Below are positions 9,613 to 29,011 of a DNA stretch of 64,000 bases, one piece after another (positions within the stretch are counted from its first letter, which is position 1; every line of letters begins with the position of its first letter). The DNA is from a virus, in the IMG/VR virus record IMGVR_UViG_3300009702_000016, positions 62,001-126,000 of that record, one strand, 5' to 3'. Made by a program: the position numbers and the translations under genes. The notes below the pieces were generated by a model. The model did no database searches, had not been told where the DNA came from, and was given only the letters and a program-made list of their open reading frames with translations.

Positions 9613-10998
9613 ATGGCTCCTAAAAAGAAAGCTGAAAAACTGTTCGTTTCCTCCATCGACGAGCTATCTGCCCTGGCTCTTGAGATTGGAAAGGACCTAG
9701 ATAATCCTCCGGTTAGCCTTGACCGTGGCTCCTATGTGGAAGGCACGATAAGCTTTGGGTCACTCATCTTAGATCTTCTCACGGGAGGTGGACTTCCTCC
9801 TGGAAAGGTGACTGACTTCTACGGACCTGAGGGCAGTGGAAAGTCTACATGCGCAGGACACCTGATTGCAAATGCTATCAGAGCCAAAGTTCCTGTCTTT
9901 TTCTTTGACCACGAGACTGCATCAGATGCGAAGTACTTTAGGGCTCTTGGGGTCAGGCTAAGATTGTCGGACGGTAGACGTAATCCATACTTTCACTACT
10001 ACCAGCCGAACACTGCGGACGACACCTACAAGACGATTGCTAGAATCCTTCGTAAGCTTCCAGATTACACTCCTACTCCTTCGGGTGGCCGTCCTCTTCC
10101 CCAGGTTTTGTTCGTGACAGATTCTGTTGCTTCCATGCTTTCTGGGTCTCTTGAGAACAACGAAGACAATGCACAGGCTGCATTGAGCGCCTCTGCTCAC
10201 TCTCGGTTTTTCCCGATGATCAAGGCGAAGATTGGAAGAAAAAACGTCTCCTACTTCTTCACGAACCAGACTCGGTTGAACCCCCGACAGAGGTTCGGAA
10301 GCCCAGAGTATGAACCAGGAGGCCAGGCGATCAAATTCTATCCTGATTTGAAGGTTAGGATGTCTGCTGTTAAGCAGCCTTTCATGGAGAGAAACCGTTC
10401 CATGAGGTTCATCAACATCAGCACGAAGAAGAACAAGCAGTTTCCTCCTTTTTTGGAGTGTAAGGAGATGCTTGCGGTTGCTTTTGGACGAGGATTCGAG
10501 CGTGGAAGGGACAGCTTAGGTTACCTCACGCTCACTGGACAGATTTCCAGAGTTAAGAAGCAGCGTCTAATCTCTTTAGAGACTGATGAGGACTACGAGT
10601 GGAACAACAATGCTTATTTCACTCCTGATTTGATGCGTGTTCTATGCTCGAACTCGTTTCGTGGTGCTTGTCGTAAGCAGCTGGAGTCTAACGTGGCTTA
10701 CTCTCTGTTCTTTGCCGCTAACGACTGGGATTCCTTGTACACGTTTGATGAGGAGGCAGCTTTCGATGACCTAGACGACGCCGTGTCTCCTGCTACGTCA
10801 GATGCTTTCGATTATGGGGAAGCGGAAGAAGCACCCACAGCTCCAAAGAAGAAGAGGGGAAGGAAGAAGAAGGCTGTAGTCGAGGCTGAGGAGGAAGTGG
10901 AAGAAGCACCCCCAGCCCCAAAGAAGCGGAGAAGGAAGAGGAGGGCTGTAGTCGAGGCCGAGGAGCCTGCGTCTGAGTCAGAGGAGGCTTCGGAATAG
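9613..10998 (+). CDS. RecA/UvsX-family recombinase with a repeated K/R-P and acidic tail
   Basis: 461 residues; GGTGA precedes the ATG. Walker A is GPEGSGKST at 71-79, Walker B is VLFVTDS with D170, and GGQAIKFYPDLKVRM corresponds to the GGNALKFYASVRL segment after loop L2 in RecA. NQTR just before it matches the RecA NQLR. It should form ATP-dependent filaments on ssDNA and promote strand exchange, working with the SSB and the nucleases in this block. The C-terminal 70 residues hold two copies of an APKKxRxxKxxAVVEAEE unit, longer and more basic than the plain acidic tail of bacterial RecA. It is most like phage RecA-type recombinases; the choice between RecA and UvsX naming is open. Confidence 0.88.
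   Translation: MAPKKKAEKLFVSSIDELSALALEIGKDLDNPPVSLDRGSYVEGTISFGSLILDLLTGGGLPPGKVTDFYGPEGSGKSTCAGHLIANAIRAKVPVFFFDHETASDAKYFRALGVRLRLSDGRRNPYFHYYQPNTADDTYKTIARILRKLPDYTPTPSGGRPLPQVLFVTDSVASMLSGSLENNEDNAQAALSASAHSRFFPMIKAKIGRKNVSYFFTNQTRLNPRQRFGSPEYEPGGQAIKFYPDLKVRMSAVKQPFMERNRSMRFINISTKKNKQFPPFLECKEMLAVAFGRGFERGRDSLGYLTLTGQISRVKKQRLISLETDEDYEWNNNAYFTPDLMRVLCSNSFRGACRKQLESNVAYSLFFAANDWDSLYTFDEEAAFDDLDDAVSPATSDAFDYGEAEEAPTAPKKKRGRKKKAVVEAEEEVEEAPPAPKKRRRKRRAVVEAEEPASESEEASE
10825..10965 (+). repeat. Two-copy in-frame repeat in the recombinase tail
   Basis: Copies at 10825-10893 and 10900-10965 encode EEAPxAPKK(K/R)R...AVVEAEE and differ mainly by Lys/Arg exchange and one missing codon. This is a recent-looking internal duplication confined to the low-complexity tail. 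Confidence 0.8.
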
Positions 10999-11000
10999 CC

Positions 11001-11618
11001 ATGCCATCGGACTCCTCACCAGTTACGGATCTGATACGGGACGGTAGGTTGTCGAAGGATCCAGGTGCAGTTGTTGACCCTGTCATCTACGATCCCACAA
11101 CTGGAAAGCCAGTCGAATATGGGAACAGTGACCCTAATGTTATCGGAGCTGATGACAAAGTAGAGTTTCATGTACGCACAGAGTCCGATTACCCAGACCT
11201 CCCCCCTGAGGTGAGAGATGCGGAGATAAAGTACATACTTCCCTTTGCCCAACACATAGCGGACCAGATTGGTATAACTGTTATTGATGAGTTCTCCTAT
11301 GAGAAGATGCTTGATGCTTTGCGGTCTCGCTTCCTCTTTGTCATCATCAATCTTAGGGGGACCCGAATTAGCGACGGGATTGCTTCTTGGATTGGCCTCG
11401 TGATCATGTGCAAGAAGCATCCAGTAGTCACAGTGCAGTTCAAGATGAGGTTGTCTACACGTCAGATAGGAATCTATCGAGTAAAGACGTGGGAAAAAGC
11501 AAGAAAAAGGTATGTTATGCACGGTGACCAGAGTGGTGCGTCGTTTCTATCTAGGGAGGAGGCAACGGCTCTCATATTCAACTACCTTCATACTGAGGGT
11601 GTGGTTCCTGGAATATGA
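11001..11618 (+). CDS. Hypothetical alpha/beta protein
   Basis: 205 residues, starting 2 nt after the recombinase stop region. The first 60 residues are loop-rich (IYDPTTGKPVEYG), followed by EIKYILPFAQHIADQIG, SRFLFVIINLRG, WIGLVIMCKKHPVVTVQF and a basic strand/helix segment (IGIYRVKTWEKARKRY). No catalytic motif is recognised. It overlaps the SbcD-like gene by 4 nt (GAATATGA), so the two are coupled, and it may be an accessory factor for end processing; that is only positional. Confidence 0.6.
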   Translation: MPSDSSPVTDLIRDGRLSKDPGAVVDPVIYDPTTGKPVEYGNSDPNVIGADDKVEFHVRTESDYPDLPPEVRDAEIKYILPFAQHIADQIGITVIDEFSYEKMLDALRSRFLFVIINLRGTRISDGIASWIGLVIMCKKHPVVTVQFKMRLSTRQIGIYRVKTWEKARKRYVMHGDQSGASFLSREEATALIFNYLHTEGVVPGI

Positions 11619-12655
11619 CCACCTTTGTGCACACAGGAGATCTGCACTTTGGGTCGAATAGGTACCTGGGGGACCATCTTTCTCGACAAGAGGAGATGTT
11701 TGACTCCATCTTTGACGTAGCCTATGCCAAAAACATAGAGACGGTAGTTATCGCTGGAGATATCTTCGATGATTCGGAGTCGATGTCACGCTCTGAGATT
11801 GAGATGGTATCCCGTAAGTTTCTGGAGTACGACTCCGCAGGGTTTCGCATCCTAGTCATCCCTGGAAATCATGATCTGGTTGACACTACGGGGCACACCG
11901 CAATTCATTTCTTGTCTCTACTTTCCCAGCATGGCCGGTTCAGAAAATCGGTAGTAACCGAAACTACCTCCTACGTTACTGTGGACGACACTACGTTTTG
12001 TCTTCTTTGCCACCGTAAAGGGTGCTTCCAGGAGGATAGCGTTCAGGCCGCTCTTGACTACCAGGAGGCCTCCCTAACTATGCCAAGCAAGAGCTTTGTC
12101 ATGGTCGCGCATGAGACGATTAGGGGGTCCCAGACAGAGATTAGGTCAAAATACGGAACGTATCGAAAGCTTGATTTCGGAGACAGTATTCCAGAGGTGG
12201 ATCTACCCATAACCTACTGGGCATTGGGGGATATTCATAAGGTACAGGCAGTTTCGGAGAACGCTTTTTATCCGGGATCTCCTATCCAGCTTAAGTTCGG
12301 AGAGGGGTGGCCGAAGGGTGTGCTGGTCGTGGACACCGACAACCCAACAGATCCTGAGTTCGTTCCTATTTCGTCAAACCAGTTAGTAAAAGCTAAGGCA
12401 GGGGATGATATACCCGATGGGGCTTACGTAAAGTTCATTGCTTCCTCTAAGGAGGAGTCTATAAGTTCAAAGTCCCTTCCGAATGTTGTAAAAGTAGAGT
12501 ACCGTTCCAACGTGGAGGAACTATCAGTGGACGCCGAAGACTCGATTAGAGAGAAGTTACTCTCTGGAGTTACCCAGCTGGGTGCTACGGAGGAGGAACT
12601 CTCTTTGGCTGAGGAGGAAATCGATTCTCTTCTACGGGAGCACGCAGATGCTTGA
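11615..12655 (+). CDS. SbcD/Mre11-like nuclease (T4 gp47-like)
   Basis: 346 residues. Calcineurin-type phosphoesterase motifs are in order: D9-x-H11 (HTGDLHFG), GDIFDD with D49, GNHD at 84-87, then MVAHE and ALGDIHK in the second half. This is the manganese-dependent nuclease subunit that with SbcC/Rad50 (T4 gp46) resects DNA ends to feed recombination-dependent replication. Length and motif spacing are normal for the family. No ABC-type SbcC partner is found in the window; the next four genes are too small. It overlaps both neighbours by a few bases. Confidence 0.85.
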   Translation: MTTFVHTGDLHFGSNRYLGDHLSRQEEMFDSIFDVAYAKNIETVVIAGDIFDDSESMSRSEIEMVSRKFLEYDSAGFRILVIPGNHDLVDTTGHTAIHFLSLLSQHGRFRKSVVTETTSYVTVDDTTFCLLCHRKGCFQEDSVQAALDYQEASLTMPSKSFVMVAHETIRGSQTEIRSKYGTYRKLDFGDSIPEVDLPITYWALGDIHKVQAVSENAFYPGSPIQLKFGEGWPKGVLVVDTDNPTDPEFVPISSNQLVKAKAGDDIPDGAYVKFIASSKEESISSKSLPNVVKVEYRSNVEELSVDAEDSIREKLLSGVTQLGATEEELSLAEEEIDSLLREHADA

Positions 12656-12944
12656 GGACCCAGATTTTACTCCTGTTTGGGAGGCGTTGAACTCTGGTCA
12701 TGTTCTTCTTCTGGTTGACACTCATTTTTCCCCCGACCCAAGTAAGGAAGACGCAGGAACATACGATATTGATGTGTTTGAGTCTAGGTTGGAAACGGTG
12801 CACGAGTGGTTTCTTTCCGTAATTTCTGAAGTTATAAGTCATGTTGACTTTCGAATGAAGAATAACGCTATACTGAGTGTGAGACCCCTATTGCCCATTC
12901 CTGGGATCTCCTCTTGTGGAACAAAGGTGATGGTGCTGCGATGA
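12648..12944 (+). CDS. Hypothetical protein
   Basis: 98 residues from ATG 12648, overlapping the end of the nuclease gene by 8 nt. It contains a strand (GHVLLLVDTHFSPD), a central helix (FESRLETVHEWFLSVISEV) and a Pro/Gly-rich C-terminus. No motif is recognised. Its stop overlaps the next start as ATGA, which places it firmly in the operon. Confidence 0.55.
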   Translation: MLEDPDFTPVWEALNSGHVLLLVDTHFSPDPSKEDAGTYDIDVFESRLETVHEWFLSVISEVISHVDFRMKNNAILSVRPLLPIPGISSCGTKVMVLR

Positions 12945-13525
12945 CTGACTCTATTCCTTCTATGCCTGCCGCTTGGCAAACTTTGGCCTTGGAGTACAGG
13001 GAGGCACCTGCGATACAAATAGCACTGACGTCGTCTTCTAAGCCCCGGCTAAAGGCAGATTTATCCCTGATAAGGGAGCTTTCTCATGCCTTTCCTTTTC
13101 TTCGTGAGGAGGACAAAGCAACTATGTCTATTCGGGGACCTTCCGACCTGTCCCGAGCGCTAGGTACTGCCTCAGAGCTTCAGTCACTGAAAGACAGGGC
13201 AGCTGAGATCACGTTGATCTACAGTAACATGCTTTCTCACCTGGAGAGGCTTCGAGATGTGATAAACACTCATGTGCTCCTACAGCCAGAAGTCCTAAAG
13301 ATGAAGAACGCAGGGCAGAGGACCGCAATTGTGTCTCTAGTTTGTCCCGACTTAGATGACAGGCTGTCCAGAGTTAAGAGGGTGTTGTCTGCCGCGTCAA
13401 CTGTCTCCAAGAACATTAACCAAAGCTACAACATCCTTAAGCTTCAGATTGAGGTTGTAAAGGAGATGATGTATGAGGGAGGCCTAACTAACGTTGGTCG
13501 AGTAAAGGACAGGGAAAGGGTATGA
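12941..13525 (+). CDS. Hypothetical helical protein
   Basis: 194 residues from ATG 12941 (ATGA overlap with the preceding stop). Mostly helical with heptad-like stretches (ELQSLKDRAAEITLIYSNML, KRVLSAASTVSKNINQSYN, ILKLQIEVVKEMMY). It could be a short coiled-coil partner of the SbcD-like nuclease, but at 194 residues and with no Walker motifs it is not an SbcC. Another ATGA overlap couples it to the next gene. Confidence 0.6.
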   Translation: MTDSIPSMPAAWQTLALEYREAPAIQIALTSSSKPRLKADLSLIRELSHAFPFLREEDKATMSIRGPSDLSRALGTASELQSLKDRAAEITLIYSNMLSHLERLRDVINTHVLLQPEVLKMKNAGQRTAIVSLVCPDLDDRLSRVKRVLSAASTVSKNINQSYNILKLQIEVVKEMMYEGGLTNVGRVKDRERV

Positions 13526-14724: not shown

Positions 14725-17700
14725 GTGCCGAGCAGCGGAGACGGAGAAAACAACAACAGAACGGTAACTGGGCCTTCCGCTCAAAACTTACCGGATCCTG
14801 GAACAGATGCTCAGACTTCTACGGTTGTGTCTCCTGGCTTGCCTGGTGACCCTGCCGCTCCGTCTCCTCCTGCCGTTGTTGATAACACCCCTACTGCTTC
14901 TGGAGACACCCCTCGGCGGACACGTACAGCTGCACAGTTAGAGGCTGAGGATGCTATTCGCGATAGCTCCTCTACGGCAGACTCGGAAGTTGCTAGAGTA
15001 GGACAAGCTCCCCACTATTTTGCTGAGCAGATCCACCAGGCATTTTATCACGAGGCTATTGTCTATATTGAGGGAGAGGATGTAAGCCCATTTCTCGTAG
15101 GCTCCATCTCTGTTTCCTACGGATTTGGAAACGACCCAAATAGTTGTGAGTTATCCCTCGATAATGCGGGTCACAGGTTCACTATCACTCCTGAGAACCT
15201 GAAGGGAGAGTTTAGGCGTACCTCCCCAGTTGAGCAGTTTGGTCCCATAGACTATGATGAGACCGTTAAATCGAACATGTACGCCCGAAAGGGCAGCAGT
15301 GCGATCAATCCAGTAGACCCTGATTCGGGTGGAAGGAGATTCCCACTACATTTGTGGGGTTCGATATTTCACAAGTATGACTCAATTCGAGTGTGGATCC
15401 ATAATCCTGCGTCAGAGAACGATGAGTGGATACCTGTTTTCACTGGGTTTATCGTTTCCAAGCCAACGACTGAGGACTACATCAAGGGACTCAGCGTTGT
15501 CAAGGTAAGCTGTAAGGACATCAGGCATTTGATGCAGAGGATGCGTGTTAATAAGAACACGATGTTGACCACGTACCAGACGACTGGAGCAGGAGCAGAC
15601 CCTACCAACCAAAACAGTATATCAAACCTTAACATGTTCCATACTCGTGACTCAAGAACATCTACTGCTCAGTTCTCAGACTCTTCAAATAGAAGCTTTA
15701 GCGAGGGATTCTTTTCGGATGTCGTTCGGGGGTCTAACTTTGAGAATCCTTGGACGTCACTGACTCTTCCAAACCTCATTGCTACCCTTACTTTCCTCCC
15801 AGAGAGAGCGTCGCAGTCCTTGTTGTCCTCAAGGGATACGGCGGTTCAACACGAAAACAGCACGCAGGATCGTCGGGTCCTTGTGGCCGCTGCTCGTGAA
15901 CTTCAACCTCTGCAGGCAAAGGTGGAAGCAAACGGACTGGATTCCTTGAGTGATACAGAGAGAGAACGGTACAACACTACTTCCTCAGTTCTTACTCAGG
16001 CCTCAGCTTCCACGGGAGATATAGCCAAGATCATAAATGGAACGTTTAGGCCCCACGATCAGAGCGAAGACAATGCTGCCGATACGGCAAATGCTACCAC
16101 AGAGGCTTCCGCGACCACAGGGTCTACCACAGGCAGGACGACTAATATCGCAGACCGTTCGGAGGGAATGTCACATGGGTCTGGACGAATCGGTCGTATG
16201 CGTCCGGGTGTTTTCCCCTGGCGCGGATCTTTGTTTGGGGACCCTCCTCGTCCCTACTATCGTGAGCATAGATTCCCTCAGTCTTCTACTACATCGAGTC
16301 ATAATACGGGGTACTATGCTGCAGTAGCTGAGCACATGGAGAAATGGTACAACCTGTGTTTCTTCAGTACTCCCCTTCGTCACGATTCCAGTCTTCTTAG
16401 CCTGGAGTATGTACCATTCTCCTCCACCCCGACTCAAACAGGGGTGTCTGTATCAGATTCGGCTCCTGACTATTCCGCAGAAAACAGGAGATACTGGACA
16501 GAGTCGGAGGTTCGTGCTGCAGGCATGAGAATCACTCGGGAAGGTGCCTGGCACCCTTCAGCGCAGGCGGTCCACTTTTTGTCTCCAGGTACTTCCACCC
16601 CAGCAGAGATGTTGTGGGACCAGAAGGTTATTTCGAGCACGCCGACCTCTCAGAACCCTAACTGGTCCAACCGCTTAGCAATTTTGTCGGAGGCTTGCAA
16701 AACAGCCGACTACCGTTTCTGGGTTAGTGGTGCCGGGGACCTCATATTTGAGTTTGCACAGTACGATTTCTCTCCTAAAGACTATGGTGCGTGGGAGAAT
16801 GTACTTACTTTGGACCATCATCTTAAGAATGAGTCTCTGGATGATGAGGGAGGAGAGATTAAGACAGGAATGTCCGTTACTGGATCTATAACTCAGCATG
16901 CATCCATTGACGAATCAGGAATAACTACCCTTCATCCCATTACTACAGTAGGTGTGTGGAGTCCAAATCTTGCGAGTAGGCTCGGTATTGATATTGCTGT
17001 TCGCTCTTATCCACAAATCAATGACCCAAATCGGTTGGAGCAGATTGCTACATTGGAGTTTCAAAAAGCTCTTGCTGTTGCTGACAAGTATTCGATATCG
17101 TTGGCATTTAGGCCTTGGGTTATTCTAAACCGACCAATCTTCAATAGCTATAGAGCCCGTTACGCTTTAGTAGACGGTGTTCGGTGGACGTATCCGGTCA
17201 CTGCTGGTGAGATGGCGGGCCACACGGCACCTACGATGCAGCTTTCCCTAAACTACACCCGGAGTTTAGATGAAGTAGGGGTTCCTCGGTACATTACGGG
17301 TGGTCCTTCCAACGCCATGTACTTTGCTCGTCCTGCGAATAGTTCGGCATCCCGTAACTACCTTACCTCAACAACAGCTAGACTTAGAACTTTTGCTTCG
17401 GCACTTCACACTATTTCTACAACGGGGGAACTGACACAACAGCAGCGGGACGTTCTTCGTGACCGCTATCGTGCTGTATTCCCAGCAGGCCAGAACGTCT
17501 ACAATGTTGTCTCTTCTCTGCTTCTTACGTCTGGAACACAGCCCCCAGGAGAGGAGGACCCCCGAATCACAGCTCTCCGTAGCATAGAAGCAGACATTGA
17601 GGAGCTTACACAGCACCCCGGAGCCTTTACTGAGCAAGAGACTCTAGCTCGTTTGCAGGACTTGGAGTCAAGGTCTTCTGCCCTTGCTCGTAGCCTGGAG

Positions 17701-19842
17701 GAGGATGAGCCCACCGGGTCTTACTCGGATCAAACCTCTGCGGGTACCATGCCTGTTTTTGGAAGGTCTGGTATCCGATCTACCTTACGTCGAGGTAGCA
17801 GGCCCTCGCAAACATCAGTACAGTCTTCTAGCTCCGATACGACTAATCCTTGCAACTTAGGACCTGAGGACTTGTTTAGCTCTCCTCTTGGACCTGCACA
17901 AGAAAACGTGTTTAGGGGAAGGTCTCGTACCTCCTTGTCTGGTCGTTTTGCTGACACTGAACCCTCTGGTGTTCCCACGTCCGCTTCTGTAGCAGAGTTC
18001 AAAGAAGGATTTCCTCGTTACGCGATAGGGGTGTACGATCTCAGAGTAGAAGGATCAATCCAGCAGTGGCATAGAGGTGTCGACATACAGACTGTTCCTG
18101 GTGCAGATGTTTTCTCCGTAGCGAACGGTGTGGTAATCCATATTAAGTCACAGTTTGCTCCCGTACCCTCCAGGGGTCAGTTCAGTGGTCAGAGAGGGTT
18201 GGACCCTCAGATGGCCATCTACATCATCCACAGATATGGATATGTAACGGTGTACAGGCATCTTGACCCATCTTCTATCTTGGTATCTCCAGGTGAGGTA
18301 GTTGGAAGAAATCAGCCGATTGGAAAAGTTGGCCTTTCTGGCGCTGAGAGGATGTTTAAGCCTACTCATCTTCACTTTGAAACATGTGCTGTGTTCGGCT
18401 CTGATGTGTTCGAAAAGTATGTGTCCACTGCTATAACAGATGACCCATCTAAGCGGTTTCGACTTGTTCGTCAGAGTGAGATAAGAGCACTTGGGGCTTC
18501 GTCCAGAACGGCTGTCGAGGCCCTCACAGTTGGAACTTCTACCGGAGGAAGCACTATCACTGCTCGTGATCGTGGTAGTCTTAGAGTTATGTACAACGCA
18601 GGCTTTACTGTTGGGGCTTTGCGTGACGAGAGTGCTTCCGGCTTAGACCTTGACTTTCTTAGAGCGTCGGATGGTACGTATCGTGTTCGAAGTACCCAGT
18701 TGCTTACTTGGAGTCCCCTTCCTTCTAAGTTCCCTTTTTCTCGTGCAGACTCTCCAAGTAGACCCTACGGTCCCCGTGGGAGCGATAAGGAGTTGATGAG
18801 TCTTAGCGAATACAGGGATCGATTTTCTCTGAAGGGAATACCCGGACTTAACATAGTTGCTCAATCTGGGTCGCAAGAACCTGTTCCCGTTCCTGAGATA
18901 TCGACTTCCGGATCTTCCTCTGCTACTCGTGCAGCGGAGAGACGAAGGGCTAGAGCGATTCGGACTAATGAGAGAATTCAGCAGCATCAGCAAGCACATC
19001 AAGAGGATCTCGACCAGCAAAAGGCACTGTTTTCTGACGCGGTACCGCCTAATGACTGCCCTCCCGGGTCCTTTACTAACTCAGAGCTTGCAGACGACCT
19101 TTCTGAGCCTCCTATCCTGGAGATAAGTCTAAAGGCGTTCTGGGGCAAGTCATTGTACATTCGAGGAAGAAACTTCTACACTGAGGGAGATTACATCACC
19201 CCCTCAAAGAGTAGTGGGTTCTCCACCTTGTATCTCAGCCCTGCCGTGGGACACAGCAGGGAAGACGCCGATAACGTTTTAAGAGAAGGACTGAAGGTAG
19301 GTTGGTGGGTAGGACAGTCCGAGATGGTTCCCGGTACCTATGTTGAAGCCATAAATAGGCGTGTCGCCATTGCGAACCCGAAGGAGCCGTTCGTTATCAA
19401 CTGGGAGAGAGCGCCTGAGTGGTCAGAGGAGAGCGACAGGTTGGCCTTGTACGACTTCTTGCTAGACTTGGCTAAGACCTATCCTGTTGGGATATCTACT
19501 CTTGACCGCTATAGATACAGAAATGAGGCAGCAACTCACCTTTCTGGAAAGGTGGTTTACATGCCAGAGCAATACAGCCTAGGGACTGGCCATACCACAG
19601 GTGATCCTGCAACAGACGCGGCCAACCGGGCTACCTCGCGGGCTGCTCTCGCAGATAAATGGGGAGGACCCTCGTTGGTTATACCTACAGTTGCTGGGTA
19701 TAGAAGAGACGACGCGGAAATGTTTTTGGACTACTTGAAGACCTTCAGTTCACTTAAGGGGTCTCTTGTGTGGGATACCCGCTTCACCCGTACCAAGGCG
19801 AGAAGTTACTCCCTTTGGCCTATAGCAGGAGAGCCAATATGA
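14725..19842 (+). CDS. Giant baseplate hub / tail protein with M23 endopeptidase domain
   Basis: 1705 residues from GTG 14725, which has AGAGGT 6-11 nt upstream. Residues 1-90 are Pro/Thr/Ser-rich. About 100-270 is a beta-rich hub-like domain (VYIEGEDVSPFLVGSISVSY). A Ser/Thr linker lies around 420-480, and further beta domains run to about 1060. Residues 1080-1225 form a complete LytM/M23 metallopeptidase: H1116 and D1120 in WHRGVDIQ, and H1215-L-H1217-F-E in the second motif, with Gly-rich strands between. M23 enzymes cut peptide cross-links in peptidoglycan, so this is likely the virion-borne lysin that opens the wall during injection. The C-terminal 270 residues are a separate domain of unknown role. 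The stop overlaps the next ATG. Confidence 0.82.
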   Translation: MPSSGDGENNNRTVTGPSAQNLPDPGTDAQTSTVVSPGLPGDPAAPSPPAVVDNTPTASGDTPRRTRTAAQLEAEDAIRDSSSTADSEVARVGQAPHYFAEQIHQAFYHEAIVYIEGEDVSPFLVGSISVSYGFGNDPNSCELSLDNAGHRFTITPENLKGEFRRTSPVEQFGPIDYDETVKSNMYARKGSSAINPVDPDSGGRRFPLHLWGSIFHKYDSIRVWIHNPASENDEWIPVFTGFIVSKPTTEDYIKGLSVVKVSCKDIRHLMQRMRVNKNTMLTTYQTTGAGADPTNQNSISNLNMFHTRDSRTSTAQFSDSSNRSFSEGFFSDVVRGSNFENPWTSLTLPNLIATLTFLPERASQSLLSSRDTAVQHENSTQDRRVLVAAARELQPLQAKVEANGLDSLSDTERERYNTTSSVLTQASASTGDIAKIINGTFRPHDQSEDNAADTANATTEASATTGSTTGRTTNIADRSEGMSHGSGRIGRMRPGVFPWRGSLFGDPPRPYYREHRFPQSSTTSSHNTGYYAAVAEHMEKWYNLCFFSTPLRHDSSLLSLEYVPFSSTPTQTGVSVSDSAPDYSAENRRYWTESEVRAAGMRITREGAWHPSAQAVHFLSPGTSTPAEMLWDQKVISSTPTSQNPNWSNRLAILSEACKTADYRFWVSGAGDLIFEFAQYDFSPKDYGAWENVLTLDHHLKNESLDDEGGEIKTGMSVTGSITQHASIDESGITTLHPITTVGVWSPNLASRLGIDIAVRSYPQINDPNRLEQIATLEFQKALAVADKYSISLAFRPWVILNRPIFNSYRARYALVDGVRWTYPVTAGEMAGHTAPTMQLSLNYTRSLDEVGVPRYITGGPSNAMYFARPANSSASRNYLTSTTARLRTFASALHTISTTGELTQQQRDVLRDRYRAVFPAGQNVYNVVSSLLLTSGTQPPGEEDPRITALRSIEADIEELTQHPGAFTEQETLARLQDLESRSSALARSLEEDEPTGSYSDQTSAGTMPVFGRSGIRSTLRRGSRPSQTSVQSSSSDTTNPCNLGPEDLFSSPLGPAQENVFRGRSRTSLSGRFADTEPSGVPTSASVAEFKEGFPRYAIGVYDLRVEGSIQQWHRGVDIQTVPGADVFSVANGVVIHIKSQFAPVPSRGQFSGQRGLDPQMAIYIIHRYGYVTVYRHLDPSSILVSPGEVVGRNQPIGKVGLSGAERMFKPTHLHFETCAVFGSDVFEKYVSTAITDDPSKRFRLVRQSEIRALGASSRTAVEALTVGTSTGGSTITARDRGSLRVMYNAGFTVGALRDESASGLDLDFLRASDGTYRVRSTQLLTWSPLPSKFPFSRADSPSRPYGPRGSDKELMSLSEYRDRFSLKGIPGLNIVAQSGSQEPVPVPEISTSGSSSATRAAERRRARAIRTNERIQQHQQAHQEDLDQQKALFSDAVPPNDCPPGSFTNSELADDLSEPPILEISLKAFWGKSLYIRGRNFYTEGDYITPSKSSGFSTLYLSPAVGHSREDADNVLREGLKVGWWVGQSEMVPGTYVEAINRRVAIANPKEPFVINWERAPEWSEESDRLALYDFLLDLAKTYPVGISTLDRYRYRNEAATHLSGKVVYMPEQYSLGTGHTTGDPATDAANRATSRAALADKWGGPSLVIPTVAGYRRDDAEMFLDYLKTFSSLKGSLVWDTRFTRTKARSYSLWPIAGEPI

Positions 19843-25107: not shown

Positions 25108-26505
25108 ATGGCCCGTACACTAACACAGATAGAACAGACGTTGGCCCGCAGTATTGCACTGCAGGACTCCTCTATAGACACGGTTAAGGGTCCTGTCTTC
25201 GACATATACATTCGACCGCAGGCGACGCAGTCAAGGTTTATCGAGCTTCTCTACGACGATCTAAGCCGAAGGTACAGTCTTGATTATGTCCAGTCCCGGG
25301 ACCCCACGAGCGTTCAGCTTTACGGCGCGAATCACGGACTAAGACGCAGTGGTGGAAAGTCTGCGTCTGGAAACGTAACGTTTTTCACCTACTCTCCACC
25401 TGACTCAGGTTCTACTCTTACGATTCCTGCGGGTACTGTCGTTGCCACCTCGGACTTCAGGATTTCTTTCCGTACGACTCAGGATGCGTTCATCTCGGGT
25501 AGCTCACTTCCTTCGTTCTATAACGCATCGACTAGGAGGTATGAAGTAAGGGTTCCTATCATTGCATTGGGCTCTGGCGACGTCTTTGAGGTTCCCCCTA
25601 CTCGTATCAAAAACATATCGTCAGCTCTTCCGGGGATAGACGGGGTAACTAATACTGAGAGGGTTTCAAACAGTGTAGAGGCCGAGTCCCTGGACCATTT
25701 CGGCACTCGGATCCGTTCCAAGTTCAATGGTCTTGCTCTTGGGTCAGGTGATGGCCTTGCTAGCTTGATACGGCAGTTTGACACAGACAACATAAGCGAC
25801 TTAGCTATGGTGTACAGCACGGACCCATTGTTTAGGCGTCGAACACGAAGGTCTGCTTGGGATGTGTACCTAATTGGAACTCTTCCCGAGACGAGTTCAA
25901 CAGTTTTTGTGGGGAACGGGGTTACACGATCCTTTACGCTTCCCTTGGCTCCCGTACTTGCGGTTTCCTCCGTCAAGGTCGGTTCAGCTTCTGTCGGGTT
26001 CACCCTAGTACCAGACAGCACAGACCAGTTGTCGACATCTTCCAGGGCTGTAGATGTCGTGGAGCTTGCAACTACCCCAGGAGTGAACGAGGTCATTACT
26101 GTCTCTTACTCCTACGATAAGCTAATTCGTGACGTACAAGACTACGTTGATAGTATAGGGGTGCAGCTGTACAGGGCTGATATTCTAGTGAGAAAGGCTA
26201 TTCCAGTTCCTATTAGGTCTCGTGTTCGAGTTCAAGTGTTGAGTTCGTTTGATGCCACAGAGGCAGCCTCGGCCGCCTTTGCTACGGTGTCAGAGTTCTC
26301 TAGCCAGTCCAGCTACGTGTCCCTTCTGTTCGCTGATAAGCTCAGGGAGAACTTATCTTCTGCCGTGGCGGGGGTGTCGAACGTAAGTATTGTGGAGTTC
26401 ACTAGAGATTTGACTGGAACTATTCCTGTTGAGACAGTGGAGTTTGCAGCAAATGAGTACCCAGAGACACCTGACTCTTTGATTACGGTTGATATCGTGC
26501 AATGA
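25108..26505 (+). CDS. Baseplate J-like wedge protein (T4 gp6/P2 J family)
   Basis: 465 residues of normal J length. Hallmarks are the N-terminal helices (SRFIELLYDDLSRRYSLDYV), a beta segment with GSTLTIPAGTVVATSD and SFRTTQDAFI, DGVTNTERVSNSVEAES (the TNxxxxxGGtDxES-type region of the family), a helix pair with RIRSKFNGLALGSGDGL, and a C-terminal domain with VPIRSRVRVQVLSSF. J-type wedges join into the ring that triggers sheath contraction, so the phage very likely has a contractile tail. Its stop overlaps the next start (ATGA). Confidence 0.85.
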   Translation: MARTLTQIEQTLARSIALQDSSIDTVKGPVFDIYIRPQATQSRFIELLYDDLSRRYSLDYVQSRDPTSVQLYGANHGLRRSGGKSASGNVTFFTYSPPDSGSTLTIPAGTVVATSDFRISFRTTQDAFISGSSLPSFYNASTRRYEVRVPIIALGSGDVFEVPPTRIKNISSALPGIDGVTNTERVSNSVEAESLDHFGTRIRSKFNGLALGSGDGLASLIRQFDTDNISDLAMVYSTDPLFRRRTRRSAWDVYLIGTLPETSSTVFVGNGVTRSFTLPLAPVLAVSSVKVGSASVGFTLVPDSTDQLSTSSRAVDVVELATTPGVNEVITVSYSYDKLIRDVQDYVDSIGVQLYRADILVRKAIPVPIRSRVRVQVLSSFDATEAASAAFATVSEFSSQSSYVSLLFADKLRENLSSAVAGVSNVSIVEFTRDLTGTIPVETVEFAANEYPETPDSLITVDIVQ

Positions 26506-26729
26506 CCAACCGTTTAACGACCTTGGACGTTGATTACATCGGTTGTCACGACGGAAACGTACATTATATCGTGTATAATGGTAGGAAGTTTTGTGCTTCT
26601 GACCTTGAGTTTCTCGCGGCACAGGGCCGATGTTCTTTCGTTGACGTTGAGTCCCTAGAAGAAGTTGAGGTCGACTTTAACGACCTATACAATGCTCTAA
26701 GTCCAACCTCGGTGTCCGTACATGGCTAA
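26502..26729 (+). CDS. Small hypothetical protein
   Basis: 75 residues, coupled to the J gene by ATGA. Contains short strands (HYIVYNGRKFCASDLEFL) and an acidic C-terminal third. Two or three Cys residues are scattered without a motif. Overlaps the next ORF by 8 nt. No family is recognised. Confidence 0.55.
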   Translation: MTNRLTTLDVDYIGCHDGNVHYIVYNGRKFCASDLEFLAAQGRCSFVDVESLEEVEVDFNDLYNALSPTSVSVHG

Positions 26730-27015
26730 GACGAATCGAAGATTTCTTGATTTTTCCCTTCCTGAGGAGGACTCTAAGTCCTATCCAGGTCCGGGTTTGG
26801 ACAAGATTCCACCTCAAGACGGCGCAGCCCTTCCTGAGCAAGACCGTTTTAGTAACCCCCATAACGACTTACCTGGTGGGGATAACAAAAGAGGTCCCAG
26901 TCGATTCGTTAAGGATGTTCCATTTGATGAATCAATCGTCGTAGGGAACCCCTCTTCTATCTTTAACTCTGTGGAGGACTATATTCCACGAGACGACCCT
27001 AGGGATATCACATGA
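26722..27015 (+). CDS. Small disordered hypothetical protein
   Basis: 97 residues rich in Pro, Asp and Gly (for example SYPGPGLDKIPPQDGAALPE) with no clear secondary structure. It overlaps the genes on both sides by 4-8 nt, including an ATGA junction with the Dps-like gene. Likely a flexible linker or assembly protein of the baseplate block, inferred from context. Confidence 0.5.
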   Translation: MAKTNRRFLDFSLPEEDSKSYPGPGLDKIPPQDGAALPEQDRFSNPHNDLPGGDNKRGPSRFVKDVPFDESIVVGNPSSIFNSVEDYIPRDDPRDIT

Positions 27016-27530
27016 AAAATAACCTACAGCTTCTTTCTCACCTAGTGTGGGAGCTTCGTTTCCTCTCAATGACCTCTCAGATCGCTCATTGGCGTGTATT
27101 TGGCCCTACCAGTTACAGCGATCACCTACTTTTCGGTCGTATATATGAGAAGCTCAACGATCTTCTCGATCCTATCGCGGAGCACTTGACATCCGTCGCT
27201 CAGTTTGAGGACGAGCGTTATGTTTGTCCTCTCCAGCAGGCTCGCTATGTTCAGCAGCGAACCCAGGAACTATTTCCAGACCTTGAGGAATCCCTACGTG
27301 CTCCTGATACAATGGCTGCCTTTATTTACGAGCATCTGTTGGTTTTGGCGCAGGGTATGCGTGCTTTATCCTCTGAAATGAGGACTTCTGGGTACCTTAC
27401 GTTTGGTTTGGAAGACCTTCTTGCAGGCACTTCTAGTGAGATAGAGCAGCTTATCTTTTTCCTTGAGAGACGAACGATGCTTCTAAAGAAGGATATGGGG
27501 TCGCCTTCCTCGGAGTTGGAGATTGAGTGA
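27012..27530 (+). CDS. Dps/ferritin-like protein with complete ferroxidase ligand set
   Basis: 172 residues. AHWRVFGPTSYSDHLLF and LLDPIAEHL carry H26, H38, D53 and E57. The spacing (12, 15, 4) is identical to the ferroxidase ligands H51, H63, D78 and E82 of E. coli Dps, and AHW...G...HL...LD..AE is the Dps signature. Length and the rest of the helix pattern suit a four-helix ferritin-like bundle. In Dps, these ligands oxidise Fe(II) with peroxide at dimer interfaces of a dodecamer that can bind DNA; there is no Lys-rich Dps tail here. The gene is coupled by ATGA and GTGA to baseplate genes on both sides, so it may be virion-associated or a recruited structural unit. Confidence 0.72.
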   Translation: MKNNLQLLSHLVWELRFLSMTSQIAHWRVFGPTSYSDHLLFGRIYEKLNDLLDPIAEHLTSVAQFEDERYVCPLQQARYVQQRTQELFPDLEESLRAPDTMAAFIYEHLLVLAQGMRALSSEMRTSGYLTFGLEDLLAGTSSEIEQLIFFLERRTMLLKKDMGSPSSELEIE

Positions 27531-29011
27531 CCCTTCGAATCTCTCACGTCTCCGCCGTTTACGAGAGTCTGTACACCGACCTTCTCGACAGCATACCTGC
27601 AGGTAACCAATGGGCGAAGGGTCCTGTAACCCTTCCCCTAACCCCAGACAAGAAGACTCCTTTCATCATCGAAGGGGACGTTGGGGACCACGTTGATGTC
27701 TTTCTTAACAACACCTTGATATCCACGGTTATCCTCACGTCCCCACGTCAGGAGTTTAGCCTACAGCTTGTTGCAGGAAAGAACTTCGTATCAGTTCGTA
27801 CTACCTCTGAGTCCTATCTGGTCTTGGTTGTGGCTGTTCGATACGCTGTCCCTCTTAGGGGATATGCGGAAGACTTGTTCTTCTCCTCCTGGGTAAAGTT
27901 TCAGGATGCCTATCGTCAACTTAATAGTGATCTGTCCCTCCGTGCTGTAGAGCACCAGATTGAGTTCCAGCGTTTTCTTCCTCCCACCCGTGCTTCCCGG
28001 CTATTAGCTGGAAAGATGGCCGTTAGGTCACTCATCAATGAAGGAGGAACGACCAGGGGCGTAGATGACATCGTCACAGCTGCGTCAAACACTACCCCGG
28101 TAGTTGTTCCCACTGAGCTAGACTTGGGGACTTTTGAGCCTGCTGTTCGGCTTCTCTATGGTACTGCTCAGGATGAGGGAGGGTTTGCTTTTCATATTTG
28201 GGTTCCAAGTCTGTGCCTTGGTACTTGGGCTGCTTTCGTCAAGCTGATGGACAATCTTGACCCTTCCATTGCGGAGCTGTCCTCCGTTAGTGATGAGAAG
28301 GTGTCCCTATCTTTCTTGGGAAGGCAAGAGTCTCACCTGTTTGATGAGGAAAGATCTGGTTGCAGCATTACTTCCTTGCTCACTCTAGATTGCCTTCCAA
28401 TTACTGTCTCTGTTGACATGACTGTGTACGCTACAGACGCTTTCTGCGCCTGGACGTACCCCTTTGACGTGGAGACGGAGTTGGCGTTGGGCAGGACCCG
28501 ACTGGACAGTTTGTCGGGGATCCGGTTCTCTTACTCCGTGGGTTCCTTTTCGGTAGACACCACAGGGTCTGAGACAGGGGTTGTTGGTGCCTCCTACATC
28601 GATCTACCTGTTTCCCGGCTAGTTTTTGCTTCTGTTTCGGATTTAGCTTCTGGGTCCTCGATTCTATCATCTGTTCCTCCTGGATCTTCTCGGGTAGTTC
28701 TTCCGGGTGGGCTTCCTGCCGCCCCTGTACTGATCACAGGAGGAGAGTCTCTCCTGCTTTTAGACTCAGGGGATACGTTAGACTCCTGCGAGGATGCAGA
28801 TCCTCTCTGCGATGGATGGTTTGGTCTTCCTATAGAGGGAAGATTTGATGCAGGTGCTTGCTTAGACAGCATGTCGGCAGAGACCTCCTTGTTTGAGGAC
28901 TTGTCCTGCTGCTTCGGTCGCCCTCGTTCTACCTTGGCTGTTGCCTCCTTGTTGGATATTTCCTTATCCTCTCCAATAACTGCATCAGCATCCTTGAGTG
29001 TCGTTCCCTAG
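27527..29011 (+). CDS. Tail/baseplate structural protein (putative)
   Basis: 494 residues from GTG 27527 (GTGA overlap). The N-terminal 110 residues form a beta domain (FIIEGDVGDHVDVFLNNTLI, KNFVSVRTTSESYLVLVVAV). A helical part follows (FSSWVKFQDAYRQLNSDL, VEHQIEFQRFLPPTRASRLL), and the C-terminal half is Ser/Leu-rich beta. It comes where P2-like phages carry tail protein I, between J and the fibres, so a role joining wedge and fibre is plausible. No family match is clear. It is the last gene before the 111-nt intergenic region. Confidence 0.5.
   Translation: MTLRISHVSAVYESLYTDLLDSIPAGNQWAKGPVTLPLTPDKKTPFIIEGDVGDHVDVFLNNTLISTVILTSPRQEFSLQLVAGKNFVSVRTTSESYLVLVVAVRYAVPLRGYAEDLFFSSWVKFQDAYRQLNSDLSLRAVEHQIEFQRFLPPTRASRLLAGKMAVRSLINEGGTTRGVDDIVTAASNTTPVVVPTELDLGTFEPAVRLLYGTAQDEGGFAFHIWVPSLCLGTWAAFVKLMDNLDPSIAELSSVSDEKVSLSFLGRQESHLFDEERSGCSITSLLTLDCLPITVSVDMTVYATDAFCAWTYPFDVETELALGRTRLDSLSGIRFSYSVGSFSVDTTGSETGVVGASYIDLPVSRLVFASVSDLASGSSILSSVPPGSSRVVLPGGLPAAPVLITGGESLLLLDSGDTLDSCEDADPLCDGWFGLPIEGRFDAGACLDSMSAETSLFEDLSCCFGRPRSTLAVASLLDISLSSPITASASLSVVP

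Follow-up and report, generated by a model that had tools for sequence, protein, structure and literature searches.

A Dps-family mini-ferritin gene with a fixed place in the baseplate operon of a lineage of large uncultured tailed phages

Genes for DPS proteins have been reported in the Gratiaviridae and in 36 other gut phage genomes, and phage-encoded DPS and catalase enzymes have been proposed to help infected hosts withstand oxidants (PMC8008677). The Dps genes of Lactobacillus phages are located in a region close to genes for DNA metabolism, replication and repair (PMC6669764). Nucleotide-metabolism and replication genes surround the gene in Salmonella phage 7-11 and Aeromonas phage LAh_8. 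In Synechococcus phage S-SRM01 its neighbors are hypothetical proteins and a porin. The locus described here differs from all of these. Phage Dps genes have so far been described as auxiliary genes that aid the oxidant tolerance of the host. No Dps gene was described in a baseplate operon in the literature searched, which left out most subscription journals. YerA41 was discarded as a further phage case, as the paper concerns the dps gene of the host and not a phage gene.

The stretch of DNA analysed here (the window, 64,000 nucleotides) belongs to a virus record of 164,031 bases. A first-pass annotation had proposed that it encodes a Dps-like ferroxidase inside the baseplate operon, with H26, H38, D53 and E57 at spacings of 12, 15 and 4. 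We confirmed the ORF, which encodes a Dps-family mini-ferritin (Table 1). The four residues are present at these spacings in the translated 172-aa protein, and the AHW and LLD-x-x-AE contexts noted with them are borne out, the second reading LLDPIAE. The gene is indeed locked between its neighbors by overlaps, with the stop codon of the upstream 97-aa ORF (27015) within ATGA and the GTG start of the downstream 494-aa ORF (27527) within GTGA. Its position inside the baseplate operon also holds, given the matches of the neighboring genes and the conservation of the slot in seven contigs.

Table 1 Features of the Dps locus (positions in the window)
Feature	Position	Strand	Evidence
gp25-like baseplate protein, 166 aa	24604-25104	+	PHROG 2669 baseplate protein, E 0.004, weak
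Baseplate_J / gp6-like wedge protein, 465 aa	25108-26505	+	PF04865 E 8e-10; PHROG 6 E 3e-20
75-aa ORF	26502-26729	+	no Pfam or PHROG family match
97-aa ORF, ATGA overlap with Dps start	26722-27015	+	no assigned function
Dps-family mini-ferritin, 172 aa, with predicted core ferroxidase ligands H26, H38, D53, E57, and with W27	27012-27530	+	PDB/PHROG matches, fold prediction, conservation
H26 and W27 codons (AHW motif)	27087-27092	+	derived from the ORF start at 27012; no change in 24 sequences
H38 codon	27123-27125	+	alignment
G42 codon (4 residues past H38; auxiliary acid position lost in slot clade)	27135-27137	+	alignment
D53-E57 codons (DPIAE)	27168-27182	+	alignment
494-aa protein, GTGA overlap, directly 3' of Dps gene	27527-29011	+	54-60% identical in six other contigs
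Tail-collar-fibre-like protein, 156 aa	29123-29593	+	PF12571 E 0.0026, below Pfam cut-off

The Baseplate_J / gp6-like gene is syntenic in 7/7 contigs of the lineage described below, and the gp25-like gene in six (the window and L003-L007). A loose first-pass search of the window's own record with the PF04865 profile gave no candidate; the hmmscan of the protein itself matches. The 97-aa ORF has detectable relatives in L004-L007, and short ORFs occupy the equivalent place in L003 and L037. The 494-aa protein had no Pfam or PHROG match, and from gene order we infer that it is the positional counterpart of gpI/gp7. After the tail-collar-like gene comes a 1662-aa ORF with the same orientation.

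Three other genes of the window were noted. The tail gene block is immediately preceded by a gene for a UvsX-like recombinase (9613-10998; PHROG 97, E 2e-48). The 1705-aa protein encoded at 14725-19842 contains an endolysin / metallo-endopeptidase-like stretch at about residues 1110-1227 (PHROG 6700, 7767) with an HLH motif, and could be a tail lysozyme or a tape-measure-like protein. A 187-aa ORF at 40954-41517 matches the region of the tail-collar-like protein in related contigs with 25-30% identity and is possibly a second, diverged copy of that gene.

The homology to Dps is upheld by three comparisons. The ten best matches in a single-sequence search of PDB chains were Dps, with D. radiodurans Dps2 at the top (E 3e-5). 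A profile built from 23 relatives also gave Dps chains as its best PDB matches (E 4e-11 to 1e-6), and those hits that carry a different name are chimeras built on Dps or Dps entries with an older designation. The third match is to PHROG 3636 (E 4e-9). The window protein scored 21 bits against DUF5856 (PF19174), below the curated cut-off of 34.6; of the 23 family members, DUF5856 is matched by 18 and Ferritin (PF00210) by 6 at E 0.01. PHROG 3636 / 858 and DUF5856 are among the closest known relatives. Weak matches to Mycobacterium "tail assembly chaperone" proteins (E 0.6-0.8) and to BioA, DGCcoil and Gag_p19 were dismissed as chance.

AlphaFold2 with a 23-sequence alignment predicted the monomer with pLDDT 90 and pTM 0.84; the first structure prediction, from three sequences only, had given 79 and 0.75. 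The 50 best PDB matches of both models are all Dps. The predicted fold is that of Dps; a non-ferritin fold, which would have contradicted the first-pass annotation, was not obtained. The predicted helices (2-28, 34-70, 73-94, 98-125 and 131-163) make up a four-helix bundle plus a helix between B and C. The B-C segment is modeled as a single helix of 22 residues, which is longer than the B-C helix of usual Dps. As the TM-scores normalized by query length are moderate (0.54-0.70 for the 50 best matches of the 23-sequence model), the modeled bundle is Dps-like yet not identical to Dps.

Queried alone against the viral contigs, the window Dps protein gave no match. Scanning the viral contigs with a three-sequence alignment yielded 28 loci, one of which is the L003 contig again, and the H, W, H, D and E residues are kept in every relative ORF read. 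Nine residues are invariant across 24 sequences: H26, W27, G31, D37, H38, L40, Y45, D53 and E57. The probability that the four ligands fall by chance among nine invariant of about 161 positions is ~5e-6; because the collecting patterns contained H26 or H38, the fair and independent test consists of D53 and E57 (~3e-3 by chance for these two alone) together with the ligands of L037, which was found through its neighbors. That homologs keep all four ligand residues proved true in every homolog read, L037 included. The same alignment patterns detected no close homolog and no prophage copy in bacterial genome contigs, and no named phage of the slot lineage was found in the phage collection.

The gene order gp25-like, J, short ORF, Dps, 494-aa and tail-collar-like is shared by the window and L003, L004, L005, L006 and L007. 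To avoid circularity, the slot was searched with the 494-aa and J proteins and not with Dps. These searches returned the same five contigs and L037/L044 (423,825 bases), whose slot holds a 165-aa ORF (MSQPNLMRLSHLVWELRFFSMASQVAHWRVFGPTAYSDHELYKRVYEKLNDLLDELAERL...) with all four ligands present. The Dps gene lies between the gpJ baseplate gene and the 494-aa gene in 7/7 lineage contigs (up to 424 kb), which represent six independent cases, as L005 and L006 hardly differ in this region and are counted once. The slot Dps proteins are 41-60% identical to the window protein with the ligands intact, and they form a monophyletic clade (support 100/100) on a long stem of 2.44 changes per column. Each of the eight records searched has one Dps copy. 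The lineage is one of large uncultured tailed phages with a Dps gene always in the baseplate slot. In L004, three ORFs (228, 341 and 398 aa; 10181-13101) separate the 494-aa gene from the tail-collar-like gene; this insert is absent at the equivalent place in the window, L003, L005, L006 and L007.

In L. innocua Dps, one monomer contributes Glu55, Asp58, Glu59 and Glu62 to the iron site and the adjoining monomer His31 (PMC8389677). Because two subunits share the site, a monomer model with its ligands facing apart would not speak against a Dps site, contrary to what the first-pass annotation assumed. The residue four positions past H38 is Gly, Lys or Arg in 7/7 slot members and Glu in most remote relatives, so that the auxiliary acid after the second histidine is missing from the slot clade. 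D. radiodurans Dps2 has Gln at this position, and the acid is hence neither universal in Dps nor defining. At the position of L. innocua Dps Glu59, 6/7 slot members have Pro. Judged from the alignment, the predicted core site is kept and its surroundings are changed in the slot clade. With the acid after H38 lost and Pro in most members at the Glu59 equivalent, the steps involving the second iron or nucleation may differ. The slot proteins have 0-1 K/R in the first 12 residues and a pI of 4.9-6.3, and lack a basic DNA-binding tail. Several true Dps proteins are also without a basic tail, which is variable in the family and not defining. DNA binding of the E. coli Dps kind appears unlikely, because the N-terminal tail is not basic and the protein is acidic. 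The Dps proteins of L004 and L007 have proline-rich C-terminal tails.

We propose, at about even confidence, that the gene encodes a Dps-type ferroxidase that is made with the tail and would clear free iron and peroxide during virion assembly. The proposal builds on the homology, the predicted fold, the ligands, the slot with its clade support and single copy per record, and the codon overlaps with baseplate genes. The published suggestion that phage DPS and catalase enzymes make infected hosts more tolerant of oxidants (PMC8008677) also favors it. The four-helix mini-ferritin would probably assemble into a cage, with sites predicted between two subunits, H26/H38 from one and D53/E57 from the other. 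Fe(II) would be oxidized there, most likely with hydrogen peroxide. Translational coupling to the baseplate genes suggests that Dps would be expressed late, together with the tail. Removal of iron and peroxide could then spare phage DNA and proteins from Fenton chemistry. The loss of the acid past H38 and of the L. innocua Glu59 equivalent in the slot clade may speak against this reading. A role only in the infected cell would not need the strict place among the baseplate genes, and the Dps genes of some other phages stand among nucleotide-metabolism genes.

Relatives outside the slot lineage show what other genes accompany a Dps-like domain. A phage GroEL gene is located within 0.1-0.9 kb of the Dps-like gene in L019 (9096-10673), L015 (8951-11014) and L011 (9281-10828); the L011 chaperonin, a 515-aa ORF, was identified by eye, and L011 is the same phage as L002. 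The Dps-like gene adjoins the terminase large subunit gene in L012 and L028. A Dps-like domain is fused to InPase (PF18823) in L009 (38-1696, 552 aa) and L020 (5178-9326, 1382 aa), two proteins that are unlike, and it lies within a protein of ~1020 aa in L017/L018. The best structural matches in BFVD, where names are automatic, include phage proteins labeled prohead protease, along with several long proteins that contain a Dps segment. In the outside phages in which gpJ was detected (G007, G008, G013, G014, G021 and G022), it is far from the Dps gene. The part of these neighborhoods that was typed suggests a repeated tie of the Dps domain to late and assembly genes.

It is possible, though less likely, that Dps is a working ferroxidase in the virion itself, bound to the baseplate, carried with it or injected, which would act on iron or oxidants during infection or stabilize the particle. 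The fixed baseplate slot in seven contigs and the translational coupling are consistent with this, as are the relatives near terminase (L012, L028) or phage GroEL (L011/L002, L015, L019), the InPase fusions (L009, L020) and the structural matches to proteins named prohead protease. However, an operon position indicates co-expression and not packaging, the BFVD names are automatic, and some remote relatives adjoin genes without a known virion role. The more specific form, an active mini-ferritin built into or carried by the baseplate so that the virion would deal with iron or peroxide on contact with the host surface or during DNA entry, we likewise regard as possible but less likely.

An adaptation of the ferritin fold to a structural or assembly role in the baseplate, with a metal site that only steadies the dimer interface, is unlikely. 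The strict place between wedge genes, the missing acid past H38, the missing L. innocua Glu59 equivalent and the long stem branch would all fit such a role. Yet no relative read has lost any of the four core ligands or the tryptophan, which goes beyond what a scaffold needs, and the same four ligands are kept in relatives outside baseplate operons; this conservation makes a purely structural reuse less likely. Contractile baseplates are not known to need a ferritin-like part.

We consider it very improbable that Dps supplies iron to a tail protein such as an iron-tipped spike. In some phage spike tips iron is bound by HxH motifs, and the Ferrojan Horse idea ties phage tails to iron, but the scanned baseplate and fibre proteins contain no HxH except for one in the 1705-aa protein. 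That motif, the HLH in its endolysin/M23-like part, was rejected as a spike iron motif, since it fits a zinc peptidase instead. A chance resemblance to Dps, or a functionless host gene picked up by accident, is scarcely credible: phages do acquire host genes, but the PDB statistics and the predicted fold argue against chance, the gene persists in seven contigs at the identities given above with its ligands intact, and the patterns used found no close homolog in bacterial genome contigs.

The intact core ligands and the fixed slot suggest that the control of iron and oxidants is linked either to the building of the tail or to the virion itself. Here Dps belongs to the tail operon throughout a lineage of large uncultured phages; its predicted core metal site is retained and the periphery has diverged. 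The debate on whether phage tails are linked to iron gains a concrete example in this locus, and the question of whether some virions carry a ferroxidase becomes directly testable.

Among characterized proteins, P. aeruginosa PA0962, D. radiodurans Dps2 and L. innocua Dps are the best sequence and structure matches of the window protein. They have in common with it the four-helix ferritin-like fold, the H-x11-H-x14-D-x3-E pattern and the W after the first H. The window protein differs from them in having no basic N-terminal DNA-binding tail (pI 4.9) and no auxiliary acid after H38, and in being encoded among baseplate genes. The proteins of Gratiaviridae, of other gut phages, of the Lactobacillus phages and of 7-11, LAh_8 and S-SRM01 are, like that of the window, tailed-phage Dps homologs, and in the tree the window clade is a branch separate from the other phage Dps. 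Phage Dps was already known; what is new here is a fixed slot in the baseplate operon across a lineage.
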